Of a stretch of DNA of 57,368 nucleotides, positions 24,480 to 49,913 are shown one piece after another. Below the pieces are notes generated by a model, which made no database searches, had not been told where the DNA came from, and saw nothing but the letters and a program-made list of their open reading frames with translations. Location: the IMG/VR virus record IMGVR_UViG_3300009610_000033, positions 1-57,368 of that record, one strand, 5' to 3'. The position numbers and the translations under genes are program-made. This DNA comes from a virus. Every line of letters begins with the position of its first letter. Within the stretch, counting starts at the first letter, position 1.

Positions 24480-24561
24480 GCTTCCTCTAAGCTTCCTCAC
24501 TACTTTCGATGGTAATGTGTGACACAAGACGGGCAACCGAACACCACGAAAGGAACAGGAG

Positions 24562-38700: not shown

Positions 38701-39197
38701 TGGGTGCCACCCTCGCCGAGACGATCCGCGAGCTGCTCGTTGCTGACACGTCCTACGCGACGAAGCTGCCAGGTGGGCTGTACCTGGCCGATGAATCCAC
38801 GTACGCCGAGGTCGGAGCTGGTGCCCAGCAGCACCCGATCAACCCGACCGACACGCCGAACGCCTACGTGGCCATCGACGGCACGACGGTGAAGAAGCTC
38901 ACGTGCTGCGGGCTGATCATGACCAGTTCCGAGCCGACGACGAACCGCGGGCAAGGTCGGTCAACGTTCGTCCGCATCTACTTCTACGACTGCATCGGCT
39001 ACGCCCGCACCCGCGCCGCGCGCGAGTGGGCCCGCGGCATCCTCCACGACCGCAAGGTGCTGGCCGGTGGGAAGGGCGTCGAGCTGATGCACTTCACCGA
39101 CCTGACGAACAGCGGTGACGAGAGCCTGCAGGGCGGCGACGGGAAGCGACCGCCGTCGATGGAGCAGAGCACCTATGAAGGGCGAGGTCGATGGTAG
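38700..39197 (+). CDS. Tail terminator/completion protein
   Basis: 165 residues. ETIRELLVADTSYATKLPGGLYL and STFVRIYFYD with a C-terminal LMHFTDLTN fit the small alpha/beta tail terminator (gpU-like) fold in position after gp10. It shares 7 bases with the glycosyltransferase that follows. Confidence 0.6.
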   Translation: MGATLAETIRELLVADTSYATKLPGGLYLADESTYAEVGAGAQQHPINPTDTPNAYVAIDGTTVKKLTCCGLIMTSSEPTTNRGQGRSTFVRIYFYDCIGYARTRAAREWARGILHDRKVLAGGKGVELMHFTDLTNSGDESLQGGDGKRPPSMEQSTYEGRGRW

Positions 39198-40417
39198 CGC
39201 CGGTCGAGCTCTCCTGGTCGGTGGACCCCGGCGCTGGCGGACTGGCCCGTCTGGACGGTCTGCCCTACGACCCGTTCAAGTCCAATGCTGCCGGCTACGG
39301 GAACATGCGCGCCGGCATCTGCCGCGGCTTGGAGGCGCTGGGTGTTGAGTACCGGATCATCCCGGCGCCGTCGTTCCTCGAACGCCTGGTGTCGTGCGAC
39401 CTAGACATGCCCGACGAGTGGCGCGACCGGCCGCACCCGGGCGGCACCCGCTGGCGCCAGCAGTGCCGCGTCACTGAGGTGCGCTCGGAGCCGATCCCCG
39501 ATCTGGTGACACGCCCTGACGTGACCCGCATCTGCATCGGCACCCCTGAGACGTGGACGTGGGGTGGAGCCGGCCGCCGCATTGGCATGACCATGTGGGA
39601 GTCGAGCGCCCTACCCGACGGCCGCAACAGCTGGGTCCCGTGGTTGGAGGACGCCGACGAGGTCCTCGTGCCCTGCGAGCACAACGCCGCGCTGGTGCGG
39701 CGCCAGTCGGCCGCCAGCGTGCGCGTGGTGCCGCTGGCGCTGGACCCGGCAGAGTGGCCGCTGGCGGACCGCACGCGGCGCCCTGGCGCCCCGTTCGTGT
39801 TCCTGCTGTCCGGCCAGCTGTCCTACCGCAAGGGCTGGCTGCACGCCTACCAGGCCTTCATGCTTGCGTTTGGGCGTGATCCGCGGTTCCGCCTGGTGCT
39901 GAAGACGTCGAGCCGATCAGAGCTGTGCGCGCTCGACTCCAAGGACCGGAGCCGCTACGCCTTCTGGTTCGAGGATCCGAACGTCACGGTGCTGCGCAGC
40001 TTCTACAGCCACGCCGGCATGCTGGAGCTGTACCGCCGGGCCGACGCCTTCGTCTGGCCCAGCCTCGGCGAGGGCTACGGCCTTCCGCCACGTGAGGCTG
40101 CGCTGACGGGGCTGCCGGTGATGTCGACGGACAACACAGGTCTGGCCGATGCCGCTGCCTGGGCGTGGCGCACGGTGCGGTCTGAGGAGGCCGCCGGCGT
40201 CGCGGCCATCTTCGGCCCATGGGGCTACTGCGGTCAGTGGGCACAGTTGGACACGGGCGACCTGGCCGCGGCGATGATCGAGATGGTGCAGGAGCGTGAG
40301 CAGGCGGCCGAGTGGACGAGGGACGTCGCGCGGCCGTACCTGAGCGAGCGTAGTTGGACCGACGTGGCGCGGGAGATCCTCGCGCCTCAAACAGCGAGGG
40401 AGGTGCTGTGTGCCTGA
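39191..40417 (+). CDS. GT4-family glycosyltransferase in the tail block
   Basis: 408 residues. A GT-B fold is indicated by the N-terminal domain (GYGNMRAGICRGLEALGVEY), SGQLSYRKGWLHAYQAF near residue 215, and PSLGEGYGLPPREAAL near 290 with the two donor-binding glutamates seven residues apart. The best match is family GT4 (retaining). Together with the GT-A-like enzyme at 37667 it forms a two-enzyme set inserted among tail genes, a likely virion- or receptor-glycosylation system. Confidence 0.85.
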   Translation: MVAPVELSWSVDPGAGGLARLDGLPYDPFKSNAAGYGNMRAGICRGLEALGVEYRIIPAPSFLERLVSCDLDMPDEWRDRPHPGGTRWRQQCRVTEVRSEPIPDLVTRPDVTRICIGTPETWTWGGAGRRIGMTMWESSALPDGRNSWVPWLEDADEVLVPCEHNAALVRRQSAASVRVVPLALDPAEWPLADRTRRPGAPFVFLLSGQLSYRKGWLHAYQAFMLAFGRDPRFRLVLKTSSRSELCALDSKDRSRYAFWFEDPNVTVLRSFYSHAGMLELYRRADAFVWPSLGEGYGLPPREAALTGLPVMSTDNTGLADAAAWAWRTVRSEEAAGVAAIFGPWGYCGQWAQLDTGDLAAAMIEMVQEREQAAEWTRDVARPYLSERSWTDVAREILAPQTAREVLCA

Positions 40418-41044: not shown

Positions 41045-41629
41045 ATGGCGAAGGACGTCGTCTACGCCGTGGGGCTGCGGGACGTGGGGCTCTATGCCGT
41101 CACGTCTCTCTCGACCCCAACCTATGCAAACAAGGTGGACATGCCCGCCGCGGCCACCATGGAGATCAGCGGCACCTTCACGTCGATCGAGGCGAACGGG
41201 GACGACACCACGGTGTCGACCTGGTCGCTCCCGAACGGTGCGGAGTGGACGCTGGAGCAGAGCACCGCGCTCGATGCGCGTGTGCTGGAGGTGCTGCTGG
41301 GCGGGACGGCGCTGGACTCGAACTCGGGTGCCAGCGAGGTGACGTACTGGGACTTCAAGTCGAATGTCGAGGTCCCGTACTTCGGCTTCATCGGCAAGGC
41401 CATCGACGCGGAGTCGGACGGGGACGTGCACGTGATCGCCTACAAGGCGCGCGTGAACTCGGGCCCGGGCGGCGCGTTCGCGTACGGGGCCTACAAGCCG
41501 GTGAACTGGGGTGGGCGCTGTCTGCCCGACCCGTACGGCAACAACAAGATCTTCCGGATCTTGAACCACGCCACGGAGACGGCTCTGCCGACTGCGTTCC
41601 CGGGCGAGGCGCCGTACACCACGCCGTAG
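41045..41629 (+). CDS. Major tail tube protein
   Basis: 194 residues, almost all beta, with the tail-tube pattern ATMEISGTFTSIEANGDD, WTLEQSTALDARVLEVLLGG and a C-terminal variable loop. An AGGAGG site 10 bases upstream and a strong terminator-like hairpin downstream suit a highly expressed structural protein placed before the tail chaperones. Confidence 0.82.
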   Translation: MAKDVVYAVGLRDVGLYAVTSLSTPTYANKVDMPAAATMEISGTFTSIEANGDDTTVSTWSLPNGAEWTLEQSTALDARVLEVLLGGTALDSNSGASEVTYWDFKSNVEVPYFGFIGKAIDAESDGDVHVIAYKARVNSGPGGAFAYGAYKPVNWGGRCLPDPYGNNKIFRILNHATETALPTAFPGEAPYTTP

Positions 41630-41707: not shown

Positions 41708-42547
41708 ATGCCCAAGAGCACGAGCCGCAAGGATCAGCTGATCGCTGATTGCGTCCGTCTCGCTACGATCGTTGGCCGCCTGGCCCGCGATGGAACTGAT
41801 GTCGAATACCGTGCCCGGCTCGGCGCGATGTCGCTGCCCGCGATCGAGAAGGAACGCGGGCAGCTGGAACTCGAAAAGCGCCGCCGCTACACCGCCACCC
41901 CCGACAGCCTAGTGCGTAGCGCCGGCCCGGGCGTGGTGGACCTGCACCTGCGCGATGTTGGACTGATCGTTTTCCTGCAGCGGGTCGACCTGCTGGAGGT
42001 TGTGCTGAACGGCGGCGTAGTGCCTGAGCCGCTGCACCAGCGCGTGCTGGAGATGATCGACGCCGACGACGCCACGGACGAGATGATGGCCGCGTCGAAG
42101 ATGGCCGAGTCCATGCAGGCCATGCGTGCGATTGCCTGCGCGGTGTGTGTGGTGCCGCCAGCGCAGTACTTCGCCGACCCCAACTTCGGTGTGGACCAGA
42201 TGACCGAGCCGCACACCTACGCGCGGCAGTTCGTCATGCCTGGGCAGCCGTGCAAGGACGGTCAGCTGCCGATCTACGTGCCGGAGCTAGAGCCGCGGGC
42301 AGACGGGTGGCGCGGGCTGAAGAAGAACGACCTGCGCTCGATCGTCAAGGCGACGATCGACAACGGACCGGGGGCGATGCTTTCCTTTCGTCTCCGACAG
42401 GAAGACGCTGTGGCGCTGGCACACGACGGCGCAGACGACGGGCCAGCGCCCGAGCCAGCTGTTGGGGATCCCGTACCCGTGGGTGGCAATCGACCTCGAT
42501 CGCGCGGTAAGCGCCTTCGGGTCGTGGGTGGAGGGCAAGATGGCTGA
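41708..42547 (+). CDS. Tail assembly chaperone (gpG-like), unshifted frame
   Basis: 279 residues if the frame is read to its own stop. The reliable part ends near residue 227. It is helical, with VDLHLRDVGLIVFLQRVDLLEV, an acidic DADDATDEMMAAS loop and a Trp/Lys-rich end. After about 42390 its codons lose the strong G/C third-base bias (28 of 51), while another frame gains it, so most real coding continues by frameshift into the segment ending 42722. Such chaperones coat the tape measure during tail assembly. Confidence 0.75.
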   Translation: MPKSTSRKDQLIADCVRLATIVGRLARDGTDVEYRARLGAMSLPAIEKERGQLELEKRRRYTATPDSLVRSAGPGVVDLHLRDVGLIVFLQRVDLLEVVLNGGVVPEPLHQRVLEMIDADDATDEMMAASKMAESMQAMRAIACAVCVVPPAQYFADPNFGVDQMTEPHTYARQFVMPGQPCKDGQLPIYVPELEPRADGWRGLKKNDLRSIVKATIDNGPGAMLSFRLRQEDAVALAHDGADDGPAPEPAVGDPVPVGGNRPRSRGKRLRVVGGGQDG

Positions 42548-42722
42548 GGCCGCCGAGGGCGTTCGCGGCAAGAAGGGAGTCACGTCCAGCCAGATCCAGT
42601 CCGCGCGGACGACTGCGTTCCAGGCCTGCGTGAACGGGGAAGTGCGCGCGACTCGCAAGCGGAGCAAGGACCCGGCGCAGGTGCAGGCGGCCCTCGTGAT
42701 GTTGGCGAGGGCCAAGGGATGA
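42390..42722 (+). CDS. Tail chaperone extension (gpGT-like) reached by frameshift
   Basis: Frame reading from about 42390: VSDRKTLWRWHTTAQTTG then PSQLLGIPYPWVAIDLD, and a basic C-terminus (SKDPAQVQAALVMLARAKG). 48 of the first 52 codons end in G or C. No start with a ribosome site fits an independent gene; a TTG at 42462 is the nearest. It should be joined to the upstream chaperone by a +1 (or -2) shift near 42371-42390, where CTT TCC TTT C and a G-run are found. Confidence 0.7.
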   Translation, partial: VSDRKTLWRWHTTAQTTGQRPSQLLGIPYPWVAIDLDRAVSAFGSWVEGKMAEAAEGVRGKKGVTSSQIQSARTTAFQACVNGEVRATRKRSKDPAQVQAALVMLARAKG

Positions 42723-43051
42723 TCGCCTACATCGTGGTGAAGGTGGCCGAGTCGGACGAGGGTGGAGCTCGGATCGTGGCGACACTTGAGCAGTTCGGGC
42801 CGTCGGTCTATTGGGAGTTCGAGGACGACCGCATCCTGTTCTCCGCTCCGGTGGACATTGGCAAGTTGGTCGACGACTACCGAGCACGCGAGGCCGAGGA
42901 CAAGGCGGCCGCGAAGGTGCACGCCGCGGAGATGGGAAGGCTGACCAGAGCAGCGCAGGCGGAGGCCGAACTGCATGCCGAGCGGATGGGCAGTGCCGTC
43001 CGTGGCCCAGCGGCACTGGCGGCGTTGGGCGCAGCGAAGGGAGTGGCGTGA
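42719..43051 (+). CDS. Small tail-region protein
   Basis: 110 residues, ATGA-coupled to the chaperone extension. N-terminal alpha/beta part (IVVKVAESDEGGARIVATLEQFG), then a long charged helix. Unknown function; may also assist tail assembly. Confidence 0.5.
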   Translation: MIAYIVVKVAESDEGGARIVATLEQFGPSVYWEFEDDRILFSAPVDIGKLVDDYRAREAEDKAAAKVHAAEMGRLTRAAQAEAELHAERMGSAVRGPAALAALGAAKGVA

Positions 43052-43305
43052 TGTGGTCGGACTGGTTGATCGAGCATGTGCCGGCGTTGCGAGCTGCAGC
43101 CGACCGTAGGCACGCGGCCGGGCTGATGAGCGGTGCGATGGACGATGCCGGTGTCACCCTCGGCGAGGTGTCCGCAGCGGTGCGGACCCTCACGGCGCCG
43201 CCGTCTGCCGGCATCGACGAGCCCGAACGTCGCGCCAAGCATTCCGCCCGCGTCGCCGAGGCGATGGAGAAGGACGCCGCGGCGAAGTATCGGAGGCTGC
43301 CATGA
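43051..43305 (+). CDS. Small tail-region protein
   Basis: 84 residues, helical, rich in Ala/Arg/Glu (LRAAADRRHAAGLMSGAM and ARVAEAMEKDAAAKYRR). Start overlaps the previous stop by one base. No family recognised. Confidence 0.5.
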   Translation: MWSDWLIEHVPALRAAADRRHAAGLMSGAMDDAGVTLGEVSAAVRTLTAPPSAGIDEPERRAKHSARVAEAMEKDAAAKYRRLP

Positions 43306-43796
43306 ACATCGCAGAGCGCTATCCGAGCGAGTCGCCCCACCGCGCTCTGGCCGAATGGCTGGACTCGTGGGCCACCCAGGACTGGGACCGGATGGTGATG
43401 GCAAACGTCCCGACATGGCGCAACCGCCAGGAGGATCCACGTGGTGCCCTGGTAGGTGCGTACGAACACTTGCGCCTAGTGGGGTGGTCCGTTCCGATGA
43501 AGAAGCCGGTGCCCGTCGCACGGGTGGACAACCCGATGCTGTCCGATGGGCGGCCGTTCATCGTGTTCTGCGACGTGCCCTGCCGTGCTCGGTTCGTGGT
43601 GATGGGCGTAGGAGAGGACGGCGAGCCAGTGGCGATCAAGGAAGTGGCCACCACGATCGTTGCGCGGCTCGTGCGCGAGACCGTGGACGGACTGCCAGCT
43701 GAGCGCGACAACCCGGCCGGCCGCTGGTGGGTGAACCCGGTGTCGATGACGAGGGGTGATCCTGCCCGAACCAAGGTTCGGACGCTGGCAGCGTAG
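43302..43796 (+). CDS. Hypothetical tail-region protein
   Basis: 164 residues, ATGA-coupled. Trp-rich N-terminal part (LAEWLDSWATQDWDRMV), then strands (PFIVFCDVPCRARFVVMGVG). Located directly before the tape measure. Function unknown. Confidence 0.5.
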   Translation: MNIAERYPSESPHRALAEWLDSWATQDWDRMVMANVPTWRNRQEDPRGALVGAYEHLRLVGWSVPMKKPVPVARVDNPMLSDGRPFIVFCDVPCRARFVVMGVGEDGEPVAIKEVATTIVARLVRETVDGLPAERDNPAGRWWVNPVSMTRGDPARTKVRTLAA

Positions 43797-43865
43797 TCCA
43801 CAGGTAGCACCCAGGCCATAGCGCGCATGACGCCCGGCCGCGAGAAGCGGAAGGGCGTTGGCGCA

Positions 43866-46800
43866 ATGGGCCTCGAACCGATCATCGGGCAGGTAGCCTA
43901 CGAGACCGACACCACCGAGGTAATGGACCTGGTGTCGGCTCTCCGCGCCCTGGAAAAGCAGTCTGCATCGCTGGCTGACGGGCTCGAGGGGACCGGCGCC
44001 GCGGCGTCCAAGACCGACAAGGTGTTCGACGGTACGGCCAAGCGAACCCTTGAAATGAATCAGGCCCTGGAGAAGACCAGCGAGGTCCTCGGCGGGCTGA
44101 CGGCGTTGTACTCCGACGCCCTGTCCAAGAGCACGGCGTTCGGGCAGTCGATGGGTCAGGTCGCAACCCTGTCGACCGAGGTGTCGAACGACCTGGCGTC
44201 GTACAACCAGCAGGTGCTGACGCTGTCCGCCAGCATGGGCGTCGAGGCAACCCAGGCCGCCGATACCTTCTACGAGGCCCTGTCGAGCGGCGCAGCGTCC
44301 GACGCTGCCGGTGGTCTGAAGATCACCGAGGTCGCCATGAAGGCGGCCGTCGGCGGCGCCACTGAAGCCAGCGTGGCGGTCGACGGAATCACCACCGCCC
44401 TCAACGCGTGGAAGCTCGGCAGCGACCAGGCCGGCCGCGCCTCGGACGTCATGTTCAAGGCCGTCGCCGCCGGCAAGATGACCTTCGGCGAACTGTCAGG
44501 GGCCATGTTCCAGGCCGGGCCGCTGGCGTCATCGCTGGGCATCTCGCTCGAAGAGGTCGCTGCAGCGTCGGCTACTCTGACCAAGAGCGGTACCCCCGTC
44601 TCCGCGGCGATGACCCAGATCCGCGCCAGTATGACAGCGCTGATCAACCCCAACGCCGAGATGCAGGTCATCCTCGACCGACTCGTCCAGAAGTTCCCCG
44701 AGATGGGGGCCGCGACTGGACAAGCCGCTCTCGACGCGTTCGGGTACCACAAGGCCATGCAGCTCATCGTGGCCGAGAGCAACGAGGCCGGGTCAGCCCT
44801 GCCCAAGGTGCTGGGCTCGGTCGAGGCGGTAGGGGCAGCGCTGGGCGTCAGCGGCCAGAACGCTCAGGGTGCGATGGCCGACCTCGACGCGATGAACAAC
44901 AGCGCGGGTGAGACCCAAAGGGCCTACGACGAGATGGCCAACACCTTCGGCTTCGCCAGCAACCAGCTGAAGGAGACGTCGAACGCCGTTCTGATCGAAC
45001 TCGGCACTACCCTCGGTCAGATGCTGGTGCCGATGCTGCAGAAGACCACCGAGATCCTGTCCGGAATGCTCGAGGGGTGGAACGGCCTCGACGATGGGAC
45101 CAAGCAGGCGATCGTCACCGTCGGCGGGCTCGTGGCCCTCATCGGCTCTGGCATCGGTGTCTTCCTCAGTCTGCAGATGACCGTGGCTGCTCTCGGTCCG
45201 CTGTTCACCACGGCGACTGGTGGGGCCGGCGTGTTCGGCGCAACGCTGGGGGCGGCAATCCTGCCGATCACCGCGGTGGTCGCGGCCATCGGGCTCTTGG
45301 TGAAGGGCGCCCATGACCTGGGCTCGGCCTACGATGCCCAGTACGAGAAGGTATCCAAGACCAGCGGCGGCTACGAGCAGTACTACCAGGCCACCCTGAA
45401 GGCGCAGGAGAGCGCCAGTGGGCTGGGCAAAGTGTTTGCCTTCGTGAATCAGGAGTCGATCCGTCAGGATCTGCAGATCCAGAAGGCCGGGCAGGCGTTC
45501 CTGGAGCACGGCCTGAGCGTCGATAAGGCGGTGCTGTCGAGCGCCAAGTTCCAGCAGGCGCAGTTCGCCCTGTCGCAAGAGGCGGCCCGCACGGGCATGT
45601 CAACCGAGGCTTACCAGGCGCAGCTGGTGGCGCTGGCGGATCAGTACTCGATGGCCGCTGGCAAGGGCCATGTCCTGACCGAAGAGCAGGCGAAGCAGTC
45701 GGCTGCGTTCGTCGACAGCACCATCAACGTACAGGCGCACGCGGCCGGCATCAGCGATGCGACGATCCAGAGCGAGGCGTTCGCGGCCCAGGCCAAGGTC
45801 TTCGGGGATGAGGTGGCCTCGGGCGGGATGACCGTAGCCCAGGCGACCGAGAAGCTCCTTGGCTATGGGCAGGGGCTGGACGCCATCGCAGCCAAGACAG
45901 CCGAGACAGCGGCAGCCCAGGGCGTGGCGTCCGGGGCGCTGAAGAGCTACAGCGACGACTTCAAGGCGCTCTTCGATGCCGGGTCCAAGTGGACCTCCGA
46001 CGTCGGCCAGCAGAACGCCCAGGTCGAGGCGGCGTGGACGTCGCTGTCGCAGGGCGTGCAACAGAACCTGAACGACCAGTGGGCCGGGTACCAGAAGTAC
46101 CAGGAGGACCTGGCGGCTGCCCGGCAAGCGGACGCCGAGGCGGCGGCCGCGGCTGTCTCGAAGCGGGGGGAGATCGAGGCGGCGGGCGCCCAGAAGCTGG
46201 TCGACCTGAACACCCGCCTGGAGGATGCGAAGACCGACAAGCAGCGGGCCAGCGCCGAGGCGGCGATCGCCAAGGAGAACGAGAAGCTGGCCGGCATGCT
46301 GGCCGCGACCGAGAACATCGGCGGCGCCAACGTTGCCAAGGTGCAGGAGCAGTACAACCAGCAGGTGGCAGCCCAGCGCGAAGCCCTCGCTCAGATGATC
46401 GTGGACCACGTCAACAGCATGGTGTTGATGGGTGAGACGAGCGCAGAGACTGCCAAGACAATCTTCGCCACACTGCGCACCGCGTACCCTGGCGTCGAGG
46501 TCCTGTCCCCGGTGGCCGATGCTCACGCCGAACTGATGGGCACCATCCGAGACGCGACCGACGAGTCGAGCGCCAGCCAGGTCGAGAGCATCGCCAAGCT
46601 GCCGACCGCCCTGGAGGGCGCCGTCGGAACCATGCAGGACAAGGCGGCCGAGTACGGCGCGACCATGGACTCGTGGGCCACTGCCGAGGAGCAGCTCGCC
46701 GGCACCCACCGCGCCGCGGCCGACTCCCGTATGGCCACCGACACCGAGCTGGCCGAGAGCGGCTCGGCGAGCGCTGACCAGCTGGCGCTGAAGAATGAGG

Positions 46801-49800
46801 AGCTCGCCACCAGCGGGCAGAACCGCGCGGCTCTGTTGGCCGAAGCCGCGGCCCAGGAGTCGGACGCCCGCACCACCGCGGCCGACGAGACCGAGACGGC
46901 CGATAGCCGGATCCGTGACTCCAGCGGCCAGTTGACGAACCAGGTGTCGGCCGACGCGCAGTCGATTGAGGGCAGCAGCGGGCTGATTGGGGCAGGCTAC
47001 AGCATGGCCGCCGACGAGGTGGCTGATGCTGCGAACCGCATCGCTGGCGGCATGTCGTCGATCTCGTCTGGCGCCACCAACCTGACCTCGTCGACGGCGG
47101 ACCTCGGCACCAAGATGGCCGGTGGCTTCCGAGCCATGCTGCCCGAGCTGGAGGGCTTCGAGCGGGGCGTGAGGGCCAGCGAGACGAGCGTGAAGGGGAT
47201 GAAGTCTGCCGGCGAGGAGATGGGCCGCAGCCAGGAGCGATCGTTCGGCACCGCCGGCAGCGCGGCATCCGACGCGGGGTCGAACATCACCGGCGCGATG
47301 GACGACAGCAAGCGCGGCATGGGTGAGGCTCGGACGTCGGCCGAAGAGCTGACCGTCGCCATGACCGAGATCCCCGACATCGTCCAGACCGAGATCGTGC
47401 TGCTCGGCGTGAAGGAGGCGCTGGGCGACCTGGCTCACCTGATGCAGCTGATGGCAGCGCTGCGGAACAGCGCGCCGCCGGTGCCAGGTGAGCCTGATCC
47501 GGGTCTACCCGATGTTCCAAAAGAATCCACCGGGTCGAGCAGTGGCGACCAGGGTCAGGCCCAGCCGGGTGACCCCGGCTACGTGACGATCATCGAGCCC
47601 CCGCCTCCTGGTGACTGGGACGAGTTCACCACCGCCGTCTCCGAGGCCGACTCCGCCGTCGCTGCGTTCTACAACACCGTCGGTGACGGCACCGTCCTGA
47701 CCGCCGCGTACCAGCCGGAGTCGCCGGCGATGGAGATGTCCGGCGACGGTCTGCGCGTCATGTGGGCGCTGGAGGATCTGTACACGGCGACCGAGGACCC
47801 GTTCGTCATCGTGGGCATCTTCGACGACACGGACTTCCAGCGCCGCATTGATGTGGCCAAGAGCGGGATTGAAGGGCTGTCGGCCGAAGCCGAGCGCTTG
47901 GCCGGCAAGCTGCAGGCAGCGCTCAACGTGTTCTTCGACGGTGGCGCGGGCGACGAGGGCAGCCTCGCTTGGCTGTTCTCGAAGTGGCAGGGCGAGGGTG
48001 CGATGCCCGACCTGGCCAAGATGTTCGAGGACCTGAACCTGCCCGTCAAGGACATGCAGGAGTTCAACCAGTACTTCGACGCCCACGGCCCTGAAGAGCA
48101 GATGGTCATCTGGAAGCGCCTGTACGACGAACTGCGCCGGCAGGAGAACGACCGCTGGGAGCAACGGCAGGCGAACCTCAAGGCCGAGATCGAGGCGCTC
48201 AAGGCCGGCAACCACGACACCACGGCGCTCGACACCCAGATGAAGGCGGAGAAGGCTGCGCACGACGAGCGCATGGACCAGCTCGAAGAGCGCAACCGGC
48301 TGATAAACCGCCAGTTCGGCTACTACCGCGACGGCGTCAAGGACGTGACCGAGGCGACCCGCGACCTCGCTGCCCTGGAAAAGGAGATGGACCGGGCTCG
48401 CGCCGAGTACCAGCGCGCCCAGGTCGAGCGCCTGAAGGCCGAGCAGAAGCTCGCTGAGGACTACGACACCACCGCCCACGACCGGGTGCTGGAGATGCTA
48501 GACGAGGAGGAGGAGCGGCTGAAGTCGAAGCACCTCCTGGAGCTCCAGCAGATCGACGAGCTCCTGAGCGCCGAAGAGCGCAGGCACCAGGCCGTTGTCG
48601 ACGGGCTGGCCGACGAGGCCGGCGACATCAAGGACTACATCGACGAGCAGGAGAAGGCGCTCCGGCTGTCGAAGCTGGACCTGGAGGAGTGGGTCGCGAG
48701 CCTCGGCCTGGACGACCTGAAGGCCGACTTGAAGGACATCAACGACGCTATCCGCGACCTGCCCAGCGGGCGCGACCTGGCGGGCGGCGGGCGTGAGCGA
48801 GCCAAGCCGGAGGACATGACCCGCGTCACGGTAACCGAGGGCCAGCGCGACGTTCTCCAGCAGGCGCTGGGGGCTGGCGTGTTCGGCGAAGAGGACGCAG
48901 CACGGGCGCGCATCGCGCTGGGCCAGGGCAAGCTGCGATTGGACTACCTGCGCCAGCTGCTGACTCTCACCCAGAAGTACTACCAGAACCAGGTCTCGAA
49001 TACCGAGGACGAGGTGGACGCCAGAAAGGCGGAATTCGAGGCAGCCGACCGCCGGTGGAAGCGGGAGAAGGAAGGGCTCGACGACCAGCTCAAGGGCATC
49101 GAGGAGCGCCGCAAGGCCGAGGACGAGTACTACGGCGCCACCAAGACCCGCCTGGAGGGCGAGCGCACCGCCCTGGAGCTGAAGCAGAAGGGCGAGCTGG
49201 ACGCGGTCGAGGCCCTGCGCGGCGCCGAGGAGCGCCGGCACGACGCCCGCATGAAGCAGCTGGAGGAGGAGTACGCCATGGCGATCATGATCGCCGAGGG
49301 CGTGACGCCGGCCGAGGCTGCCCGCCGGATCGCTGAGCTGCGCGACAACGTCCGCCGAGCGATGGAGGACGCGGCCAAGCTGCTGGAGGAGCTGAGGAAG
49401 AACACGGGCAGCACGGCCCCCGGTGCCGGCGGCGGTTCGGCAGGACCGATCGCGCCAGGCCAGCCTGTGCCACCGCCGGGCGGTATCGCCCCACCACCGA
49501 AGGGCGCAACCGGCATGATGACCGGCACCGGCTCGCAGACGGACGGCACCAGCGAGACCAACCCCTGGCGCTACGCCGAGACGAACCCGTGGCGGTATGC
49601 GAAGGGCAATACGCCCGGTGATCCGCTGTGGGTGGCCATCGCCGAGGGAACGATCGGCGGAGCGCCCCGCCCACCGGGTAGTGATCCGACCGAGGGAGAT
49701 CCTGGCATGACGCTCTCCGACTTCCTCGGCATGCTGCCCAGCGACACGGCGCCGGGGCGCGGTGCAGCCGGTGGCGGTGGCGCGCTGTTCACTGCAGGCG

Positions 49801-49913
49801 ACACCGTCAACACCCAATTCTGGGGGCCGGTCTACATCGAGGAGGGCACCGAGCCCGACCGGCTCCTGCGCAAGAGCCTCGGCGGCGGCTGGGGCACGAG
49901 AGGGACACCGTAA
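43866..49913 (+). CDS. Tape measure protein
   Basis: 2015 residues from the ATG at 43866 (an ATG at 43827 would add 13). Residues about 100-350 match the TP901 tape-measure core (LASYNQQVLTLSASMGVEA, TFGELSGAMFQAGPLASSLG, TKSGTPVSAAMTQIRASM). Hydrophobic segments lie at about 416-440 and 470-487. Long coiled coils occupy about 750-850 and 1430-1880, and a Pro/Gly-rich tail ends the protein, including a tandem duplication NPWRYAET/NPWRYAKG. By the usual rule of about 0.15 nm per residue the tail would be near 300 nm, which is long. Confidence 0.93.
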   Translation: MGLEPIIGQVAYETDTTEVMDLVSALRALEKQSASLADGLEGTGAAASKTDKVFDGTAKRTLEMNQALEKTSEVLGGLTALYSDALSKSTAFGQSMGQVATLSTEVSNDLASYNQQVLTLSASMGVEATQAADTFYEALSSGAASDAAGGLKITEVAMKAAVGGATEASVAVDGITTALNAWKLGSDQAGRASDVMFKAVAAGKMTFGELSGAMFQAGPLASSLGISLEEVAAASATLTKSGTPVSAAMTQIRASMTALINPNAEMQVILDRLVQKFPEMGAATGQAALDAFGYHKAMQLIVAESNEAGSALPKVLGSVEAVGAALGVSGQNAQGAMADLDAMNNSAGETQRAYDEMANTFGFASNQLKETSNAVLIELGTTLGQMLVPMLQKTTEILSGMLEGWNGLDDGTKQAIVTVGGLVALIGSGIGVFLSLQMTVAALGPLFTTATGGAGVFGATLGAAILPITAVVAAIGLLVKGAHDLGSAYDAQYEKVSKTSGGYEQYYQATLKAQESASGLGKVFAFVNQESIRQDLQIQKAGQAFLEHGLSVDKAVLSSAKFQQAQFALSQEAARTGMSTEAYQAQLVALADQYSMAAGKGHVLTEEQAKQSAAFVDSTINVQAHAAGISDATIQSEAFAAQAKVFGDEVASGGMTVAQATEKLLGYGQGLDAIAAKTAETAAAQGVASGALKSYSDDFKALFDAGSKWTSDVGQQNAQVEAAWTSLSQGVQQNLNDQWAGYQKYQEDLAAARQADAEAAAAAVSKRGEIEAAGAQKLVDLNTRLEDAKTDKQRASAEAAIAKENEKLAGMLAATENIGGANVAKVQEQYNQQVAAQREALAQMIVDHVNSMVLMGETSAETAKTIFATLRTAYPGVEVLSPVADAHAELMGTIRDATDESSASQVESIAKLPTALEGAVGTMQDKAAEYGATMDSWATAEEQLAGTHRAAADSRMATDTELAESGSASADQLALKNEELATSGQNRAALLAEAAAQESDARTTAADETETADSRIRDSSGQLTNQVSADAQSIEGSSGLIGAGYSMAADEVADAANRIAGGMSSISSGATNLTSSTADLGTKMAGGFRAMLPELEGFERGVRASETSVKGMKSAGEEMGRSQERSFGTAGSAASDAGSNITGAMDDSKRGMGEARTSAEELTVAMTEIPDIVQTEIVLLGVKEALGDLAHLMQLMAALRNSAPPVPGEPDPGLPDVPKESTGSSSGDQGQAQPGDPGYVTIIEPPPPGDWDEFTTAVSEADSAVAAFYNTVGDGTVLTAAYQPESPAMEMSGDGLRVMWALEDLYTATEDPFVIVGIFDDTDFQRRIDVAKSGIEGLSAEAERLAGKLQAALNVFFDGGAGDEGSLAWLFSKWQGEGAMPDLAKMFEDLNLPVKDMQEFNQYFDAHGPEEQMVIWKRLYDELRRQENDRWEQRQANLKAEIEALKAGNHDTTALDTQMKAEKAAHDERMDQLEERNRLINRQFGYYRDGVKDVTEATRDLAALEKEMDRARAEYQRAQVERLKAEQKLAEDYDTTAHDRVLEMLDEEEERLKSKHLLELQQIDELLSAEERRHQAVVDGLADEAGDIKDYIDEQEKALRLSKLDLEEWVASLGLDDLKADLKDINDAIRDLPSGRDLAGGGRERAKPEDMTRVTVTEGQRDVLQQALGAGVFGEEDAARARIALGQGKLRLDYLRQLLTLTQKYYQNQVSNTEDEVDARKAEFEAADRRWKREKEGLDDQLKGIEERRKAEDEYYGATKTRLEGERTALELKQKGELDAVEALRGAEERRHDARMKQLEEEYAMAIMIAEGVTPAEAARRIAELRDNVRRAMEDAAKLLEELRKNTGSTAPGAGGGSAGPIAPGQPVPPPGGIAPPPKGATGMMTGTGSQTDGTSETNPWRYAETNPWRYAKGNTPGDPLWVAIAEGTIGGAPRPPGSDPTEGDPGMTLSDFLGMLPSDTAPGRGAAGGGGALFTAGDTVNTQFWGPVYIEEGTEPDRLLRKSLGGGWGTRGTP

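Follow-up and report, generated by a model that had tools for sequence, protein, structure and literature searches.

The tail assembly chaperone gene of this soil-type phage, which is of the lambda G/GT type, very probably uses a programmed +1 ribosomal frameshift at the site UUU_CGU. The phage most likely makes two versions of the chaperone, judging from the sequences compared here. We infer the shift of the ribosome at this site, its efficiency and the chaperone role of the products from three observations: the arrangement of the reading frames, the homology of the second frame and the conservation of the site in relatives.

Organization of the locus

The window, i.e. the whole stretch of DNA that was analysed, comprises 57,368 bases with 68% G+C, and no tRNA genes were found in it. 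The features that matter for the argument are the following.

41045..41629, + strand: major tail protein gene, the upstream neighbour (PHROG 4971, E=1e-24; 62% identity to contig L001)
41708..42547, + strand: ORF1, tail assembly chaperone, unshifted product of 279 aa (assigned from its position and the homologous arrangement in relatives)
42383..42385, + strand: TCC codon before the slip codon (E site), not conserved (positions -3 to -1 carry 0.10-0.50 bits in 36 loci)
42386..42391, + strand: predicted TTT_CGT slip site, read as P-site UUU and A-site CGU, where the tRNA would re-pair on UUC at 42387-42389 (assigned from the invariance of TTTCG in relatives)
42390..42722, + strand: +1-frame extension after the predicted slip (the frame itself is open from 42321; predicted fused product 337 aa)
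43827..49913, + strand: tape measure protein gene, 2028 residues, the downstream neighbour (PHROG tape measure families)

The chaperone gene pair comes after the major tail protein gene and ahead of the tape measure gene, as chaperone genes of tailed phages do. The tape measure protein matches PHROG 23013 and others, with the best match (E=2.8e-49) on its first 891 residues. ORF1 alone has no PHROG or Pfam match. The fused protein matches the tail assembly chaperone family PHROG 6778 weakly (E=2e-4), and ORF1 of a relative (L002) matches PHROG 4336 with E=2e-75. Three small ORFs on the + strand occupy 42719-43796, after the chaperone frame and ahead of the tape measure gene; most relatives read lack them. 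The last of them (43302-43796) is similar by eye to an ORF at 6724-7284 of L001 and may be a conserved tail gene. Upstream of the major tail protein gene, the head-tail block includes an ORF of 408 residues (39191-40417) that appears glycosyltransferase-like by eye.

Relation of the two frames and the point of change-over

The second frame runs from its last upstream stop at 42318 to its end at 42722. As the sequence-only reading had claimed, it overlaps ORF1 (41708-42547) in a relation that is +1 or -2, not -1. The second frame is open only from 42321 and the ORF1 stop lies at 42545, so that any shift must fall within 42321-42545.

Codon usage narrows this interval. In ORF1 upstream of the junction, 191 of 226 codons end in G or C. 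Past the junction, this holds for 48/52 codons of the other frame (from 42390) and for 29/51 of the ORF1 frame (from 42392). The same reading had counted 48/52, which was borne out, and 28/51, which was recounted as given here; a Fisher test on its original figures, 28/51 against 48/52, yields P = 1.4e-5. A change-over likelihood built from the codon usage of 16 window genes places the frame change at 42377-42386, with the best point at the TCC codon at 42383. Relative to this point, the TTT codon at 42386 scores 3.0 log units lower and the G5 run at 42370-42374 scores 5.5 lower, which puts a shift on the G5 run 2.5 log units below the TTT codon. The preference for a switch one codon earlier, by 3 log units, counts against a slip on TTT. 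However, the model has no knowledge of slippage, and it avoids TTT because the TTT codon is itself rare.

The site at 42386-42391 has UUU in the zero frame followed by CGN, which permits re-pairing of tRNA-Phe on UUC. Among 17,000 codons called heuristically in the window, TTT-CGY is found only once, at 42386. TTT accounts for 28/390 Phe codons of the window, and the commonest Arg codon is CGC, with 636 occurrences vs 124 for CGT. On the + strand, the TTTCG at 42386 is the only copy between those at 24504 and 52629, and hence the only one within the structural gene block. The sequence-only reading had pointed to CTTTCCTTTC at 42380-42389 and to GGGGG at 42370-42374, and both are located where it had put them. 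The former string ends inside the key site TTT CGT.

Conservation of the junction in relatives

A megablast search of the phage collection with an 8.6 kb query found no close relative at the DNA level. Searches with tblastn using ORF1 alone or the capsid protein, and a related-locus search with ORF1 as the query, also returned nothing. The read-through protein, used as a tblastn query against phages, matched 77 records at E values up to 10, all of them actinobacteriophages, with Fowlmouth as the best match (E=2e-7, 43% identity). The homology to annotated tail chaperones starts at residue 227, which is the slip Phe of the TTT codon.

A first set of 11 loci consisted of the window and ten phages that were chaperone matches or tail-protein relatives. 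In 11/11, the second frame is in the +1 relation, and TTT CGC or TTT CGT is found in the ORF1 frame at the junction. The closest relative found is the metagenomic contig L001, with a tail protein that is 62% identical. It has TTT CGT followed by AGA GAG TAG, and the second frame is again +1. Its upstream codons differ from those of the window, so that the G5 run and CTT TCC are gone. Of the strings proposed at the outset, the conserved part is thus the TTT C end of CTTTCCTTTC, and CTT TCC and the G5 run are already missing from this closest relative.

A search of IMG/VR was carried out with a degenerate second-frame pattern, RPS[ED]...A..FDR, which lies 61 bases downstream and does not overlap the slip site at all. 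Of the 29 contigs that matched, 28 were testable, since one (L038) ends before the site. In 28/28, the second frame is +1 and the ORF1 frame has TTTCG at a constant distance of 20 codons ahead of RPS. Six phages added by domain similarity (Hawkeye, Damien, Terapin, Ranch, LuckyLeo and Konstantine) all have TTT CGC and a +1 second frame. L012 and L013, which are apparently Fowlmouth and Cuke again, were left out of the counts.

Among the 46 loci of these first sets, the A-site codon is CGT or CGC in 46/46, and 36 loci that differ by more than 20% over 180 bases form a non-redundant set. T-T-T-C-G are the only fully invariant columns among the 100 from -30 to +69 in the latter, so that the proposed alignment of relatives did reveal a conserved candidate slip string, in 36/36 loci. 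In this set CGN ends in T 23 times, in C 13 times and never in A or G, whereas the codon before TTT is nearly random. Outside the slip site, Phe is coded by TTC 306 times and by TTT 52 times in 39 genes (the 36 non-redundant ones and three chosen by tail protein). The invariant TTT at the junction therefore does not reflect codon preference.

For a further set of eight phages, the criterion of similarity was the major tail protein instead of the chaperone. In 6/8 of them, the second frame is +1. The other two, mu1/6 and OnionKnight, have an unrelated chaperone with a second frame in -1 and the letters GGGAAAC. Among the six +1 loci, TTT C is kept in five and TTT CGY in three (Patience, Shrew and Predator). 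Nocardia phage P3.1 has TTT CCT and Triscuit has TTT CTG, so CGY is not obligatory. Mycobacterium phage Leopard (L056 4199-4245) has a +1 pair with a homologous second domain and no TTT C in the overlap; our guess for its slip site is AAA AGT, with perfect AAA_A re-pairing, and GTT CTC may be another candidate.

Overall, TTT_CGY is present at the junction in 49/52 +1 actinophage loci and TTT_C in 51/52. What stays constant is hence a codon in the P site whose tRNA can re-pair one base further on, and an A-site CGY is, as far as the compared loci tell, strongly preferred but not essential. Conservation of the CG could in part be due to the Ala or Val coded in the +1 frame. Taken together, the relatives support the earlier suggestion of a tail-chaperone frameshift in the +1 or -2 direction. 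A relative with a single continuous frame, which had been named beforehand as the finding that would speak for a sequencing error, did not occur among the loci examined.

Archaeal viruses

TTT-CGC in the chaperone pair of the HF1-group haloviruses was proposed in print in 2020 (PMC7230728). We find TTT_CGY at the same kind of +1 junction in 4/4 archaeal viruses of the Hafunaviridae, namely HF2 and three viruses selected by similarity to its second frame (HSTV-2, HRTV-25 and HJTV-2). The second-frame protein of the haloviruses has no likeness by eye to the actinophage domain. Contrary to our reading, the RefSeq notes for HRTV-25 and HJTV-2 (at L061 441-1128 and L062 432-1215) read 'putative programmed translational -2 frameshift', even though both viruses have a TTT_CGY that permits re-pairing at +1.

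Proposed mechanism

A single tRNA-Phe anticodon serves both UUU and UUC, and UUC is bound better. Most ribosomes would read ORF1 to its stop at 42545 and produce the short chaperone. A fraction of them would pause while UUU (42386-42388) is paired with tRNA-Phe and the A site holds CGU. This tRNA would then move forward by one base to pair with UUC, and reading would resume with GUC in the +1 frame. The resulting product would have 337 residues and include the C-terminal domain (...AMLS-F-VSDRK...). If lambda is a guide, this extended form may bridge the tape measure and tail tube proteins, in a fixed ratio to the short form. Slippage in the P site fits the phage data because the pairing one base ahead is conserved and the pairing two bases back is not.

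Alternative explanations

A -2 shift as in phage Mu would give a product that is one residue longer, whether it took place at the TTT_CGT site itself or on the G5 run 16-12 bases upstream. The frames alone do not separate it from +1, and two archaeal RefSeq records with TTT_CGY are annotated in this way. Re-pairing two bases back needs particular bases before the slip codon, yet the positions concerned, -3 to -1, are nearly random (0.10-0.50 bits in 36 loci), whereas +1 re-pairing from UUU to UUC is possible in 51/52 actinophage +1 loci. The G5 run is missing in L001 and has the worse codon likelihood. Moreover, mass spectrometry of the product of influenza UCC_UUU_CGU detected a +1 and no -2 peptide (PMC3498833). 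We infer the +1 direction from which of the two pairings is conserved, and regard a -2 shift as improbable. The predicted tryptic junction peptides of the window sequence are ATIDNGPGAMLSFVSDR for +1, ATIDNGPGAMLSFFVSDR for -2 and ATIDNGPGAMLSFR for no shift; the junction would read LSFVSDR in the first case and LSFFVSDR, with one extra residue, in the second.

It is highly improbable that the second frame is translated without any frameshift, as an independent gene from a start codon within it. Several database records annotate two ORFs here, and a TTG is available at 42462. However, both the homology and the codon bias of the second frame begin at 42387-42390, the +1 frame contains no ATG, GTG or TTG between 42321 and 42462, and the first possible start is thus 75 bases past the start of the homology. 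A separate gene would also leave the invariant TTT_CGY in the other frame unexplained. Transcriptional slippage on a homopolymer, giving rise to mixed mRNAs, has the G5 run and the T-rich letters near the junction in its favour, but no homopolymer longer than TTT is conserved and L001 lacks the G5 run, which makes this explanation very unlikely as well. Finally, two frames could result if a single-frame gene had suffered a genuine frameshift mutation or been sequenced wrongly. Nothing speaks for this beyond the presence of two frames, and its chance of being correct is negligible: many phages and metagenomes, with 52 loci in all, share the +1 arrangement, and among the first 46 loci 36 are more than 20% different.

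Within a frameshift, other slip sites and stimulators were considered and rejected in favour of +1 slippage on UUU. On the G5 run, GGG_G would re-pair perfectly at +1, but the run is absent from L001 and its codon likelihood is worse. CTT_T and TCC_T as slip codons are not conserved in relatives. A classic -1 signal of the form X_XXY_YYZ does not fit a +1 second frame, and mu1/6 and OnionKnight, with -1 and GGGAAAC, provide the contrast. A Mu-type -2 site lacks the conserved bases for re-pairing two back in the 36 loci, and the G5 run is not conserved. A +1 site of the prfB type is not supported either: in the 46 loci the A site never holds a stop codon, and the bases directly upstream show no conserved run of purines. 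G-rich letters are frequent at -24 to -19 and could suggest a Shine-Dalgarno element. However, their distance from the slip codon is 18 bases, they encode Gly-Gly, and the window retains them only in part. The use of CGC, the commonest Arg codon of the window, in 13/36 loci gives no support to the idea that a rare codon in the A site drives the shift.

RNAalifold predicted no consensus RNA structure for 36 ungapped loci, with an energy of 0 equal to that of the column-shuffled controls. Mean z-scores of the downstream fold are only -0.6 to -0.8 across loci; the 60 bases of the window have z = -2.9, which leaves room for an RNA stimulator private to this phage. A search of genome contigs with the motif-free pattern, directed at prophage copies, gave one match, to a Hymenobacter contig. 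The frame is interrupted by a stop codon there and TTTCG is missing from the part inspected, and the match was judged to be due to chance.

Comparison with known systems

In the lambda-type G/GT chaperones of phages, the programmed frameshift is reportedly usually -1 (attributed to Xu et al. 2004). Lambda makes a short chaperone and a scarce extended one, which starts tube assembly on the tape measure protein (PMC5009743). The locus described here resembles lambda G/GT in its tail tube and tape measure flanks and in the predicted pair of a short and a frameshift-extended product, but differs in the direction of the slip, +1 instead of -1, and in the three further ORFs between the chaperone and tape measure genes. 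With the prfB frameshift, which takes place at CUU_UGA_C with an upstream Shine-Dalgarno sequence (PMC3711429), it would share a +1 slip in the P site in bacteria. It differs from prfB in having neither a stop codon in the A site nor a conserved Shine-Dalgarno sequence next to the slip codon.

The closest parallels for the motif come from RNA viruses. The slip site of influenza A PA-X is UCC_UUU_CGU, and the +1 peptide has been sequenced (PMC3498833). For plant amalgaviruses, a UUU_CGN +1 motif has been proposed, with all four CGN codons in use (PMC5052127). The window contains the identical nine letters of the influenza site, TCC TTT CGT, and would use the same re-pairing from UUU to UUC in the P site. 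However, influenza and the amalgaviruses are RNA viruses that depend on eukaryotic ribosomes, and the proteins concerned are others. Moreover, the phages do not keep UCC and their CGN loci use only CGT and CGC. As far as these data go, the match in the E site is a coincidence. The HF1-group haloviruses share the gene pair, the +1 frame and the string, but have archaeal hosts, and their second-frame protein is without visible similarity to the actinophage domain.

It is thus already known that chaperones may be frameshifted by +1, that UUU_CGN can serve as a motif, and that some of these phages have joined +1 chaperones. The homologous genes of Fowlmouth, Cuke, NarutoRun, Leopard and others are already joined in GenBank; the records give no slip motif, and some relatives are annotated as two separate proteins. 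We found no paper in the open-licence literature that names UUU_CGN for actinobacteriophages or shows it to be their invariant site, and priority is uncertain. According to the paper on PRFect, a frameshift predictor trained on SEA-PHAGES annotations, forward frameshifts still lack an identified general motif (PMC10885494). The near-invariant UUU_CGY across a large group of phage chaperones is a candidate for such a motif.

The constancy of the motif across lineages is the interesting part. We consider it quite possible, though somewhat short of probable, that UUU_CGY serves generally as a signal for +1 recoding, with ribosomes of bacteria, archaea and eukaryotes alike. Such a signal would rest on the universal tRNA-Phe and a still unexplained effect of CGN in the A site, with no need for a structured stimulator. 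If so, phage chaperones would be its most widespread users, and actinophages and haloviruses would have reached the motif independently. The phages could also serve as a bacterial model, simple and accessible to genetics, of the PA-X slip of influenza, which is poorly understood. The exceptions, UUU_CCU, UUU_CUG and Leopard, can be viewed as natural experiments on the contribution of the A-site codon.

The findings have a bearing on annotation, as several records split the gene pair and two others say -2. In Sparcetus (L010 3086-3911) and DumpTruck (L005 1380-2199), the second frames are annotated as separate hypothetical proteins despite a TTT_CGY junction, and appear to be missed joined genes.
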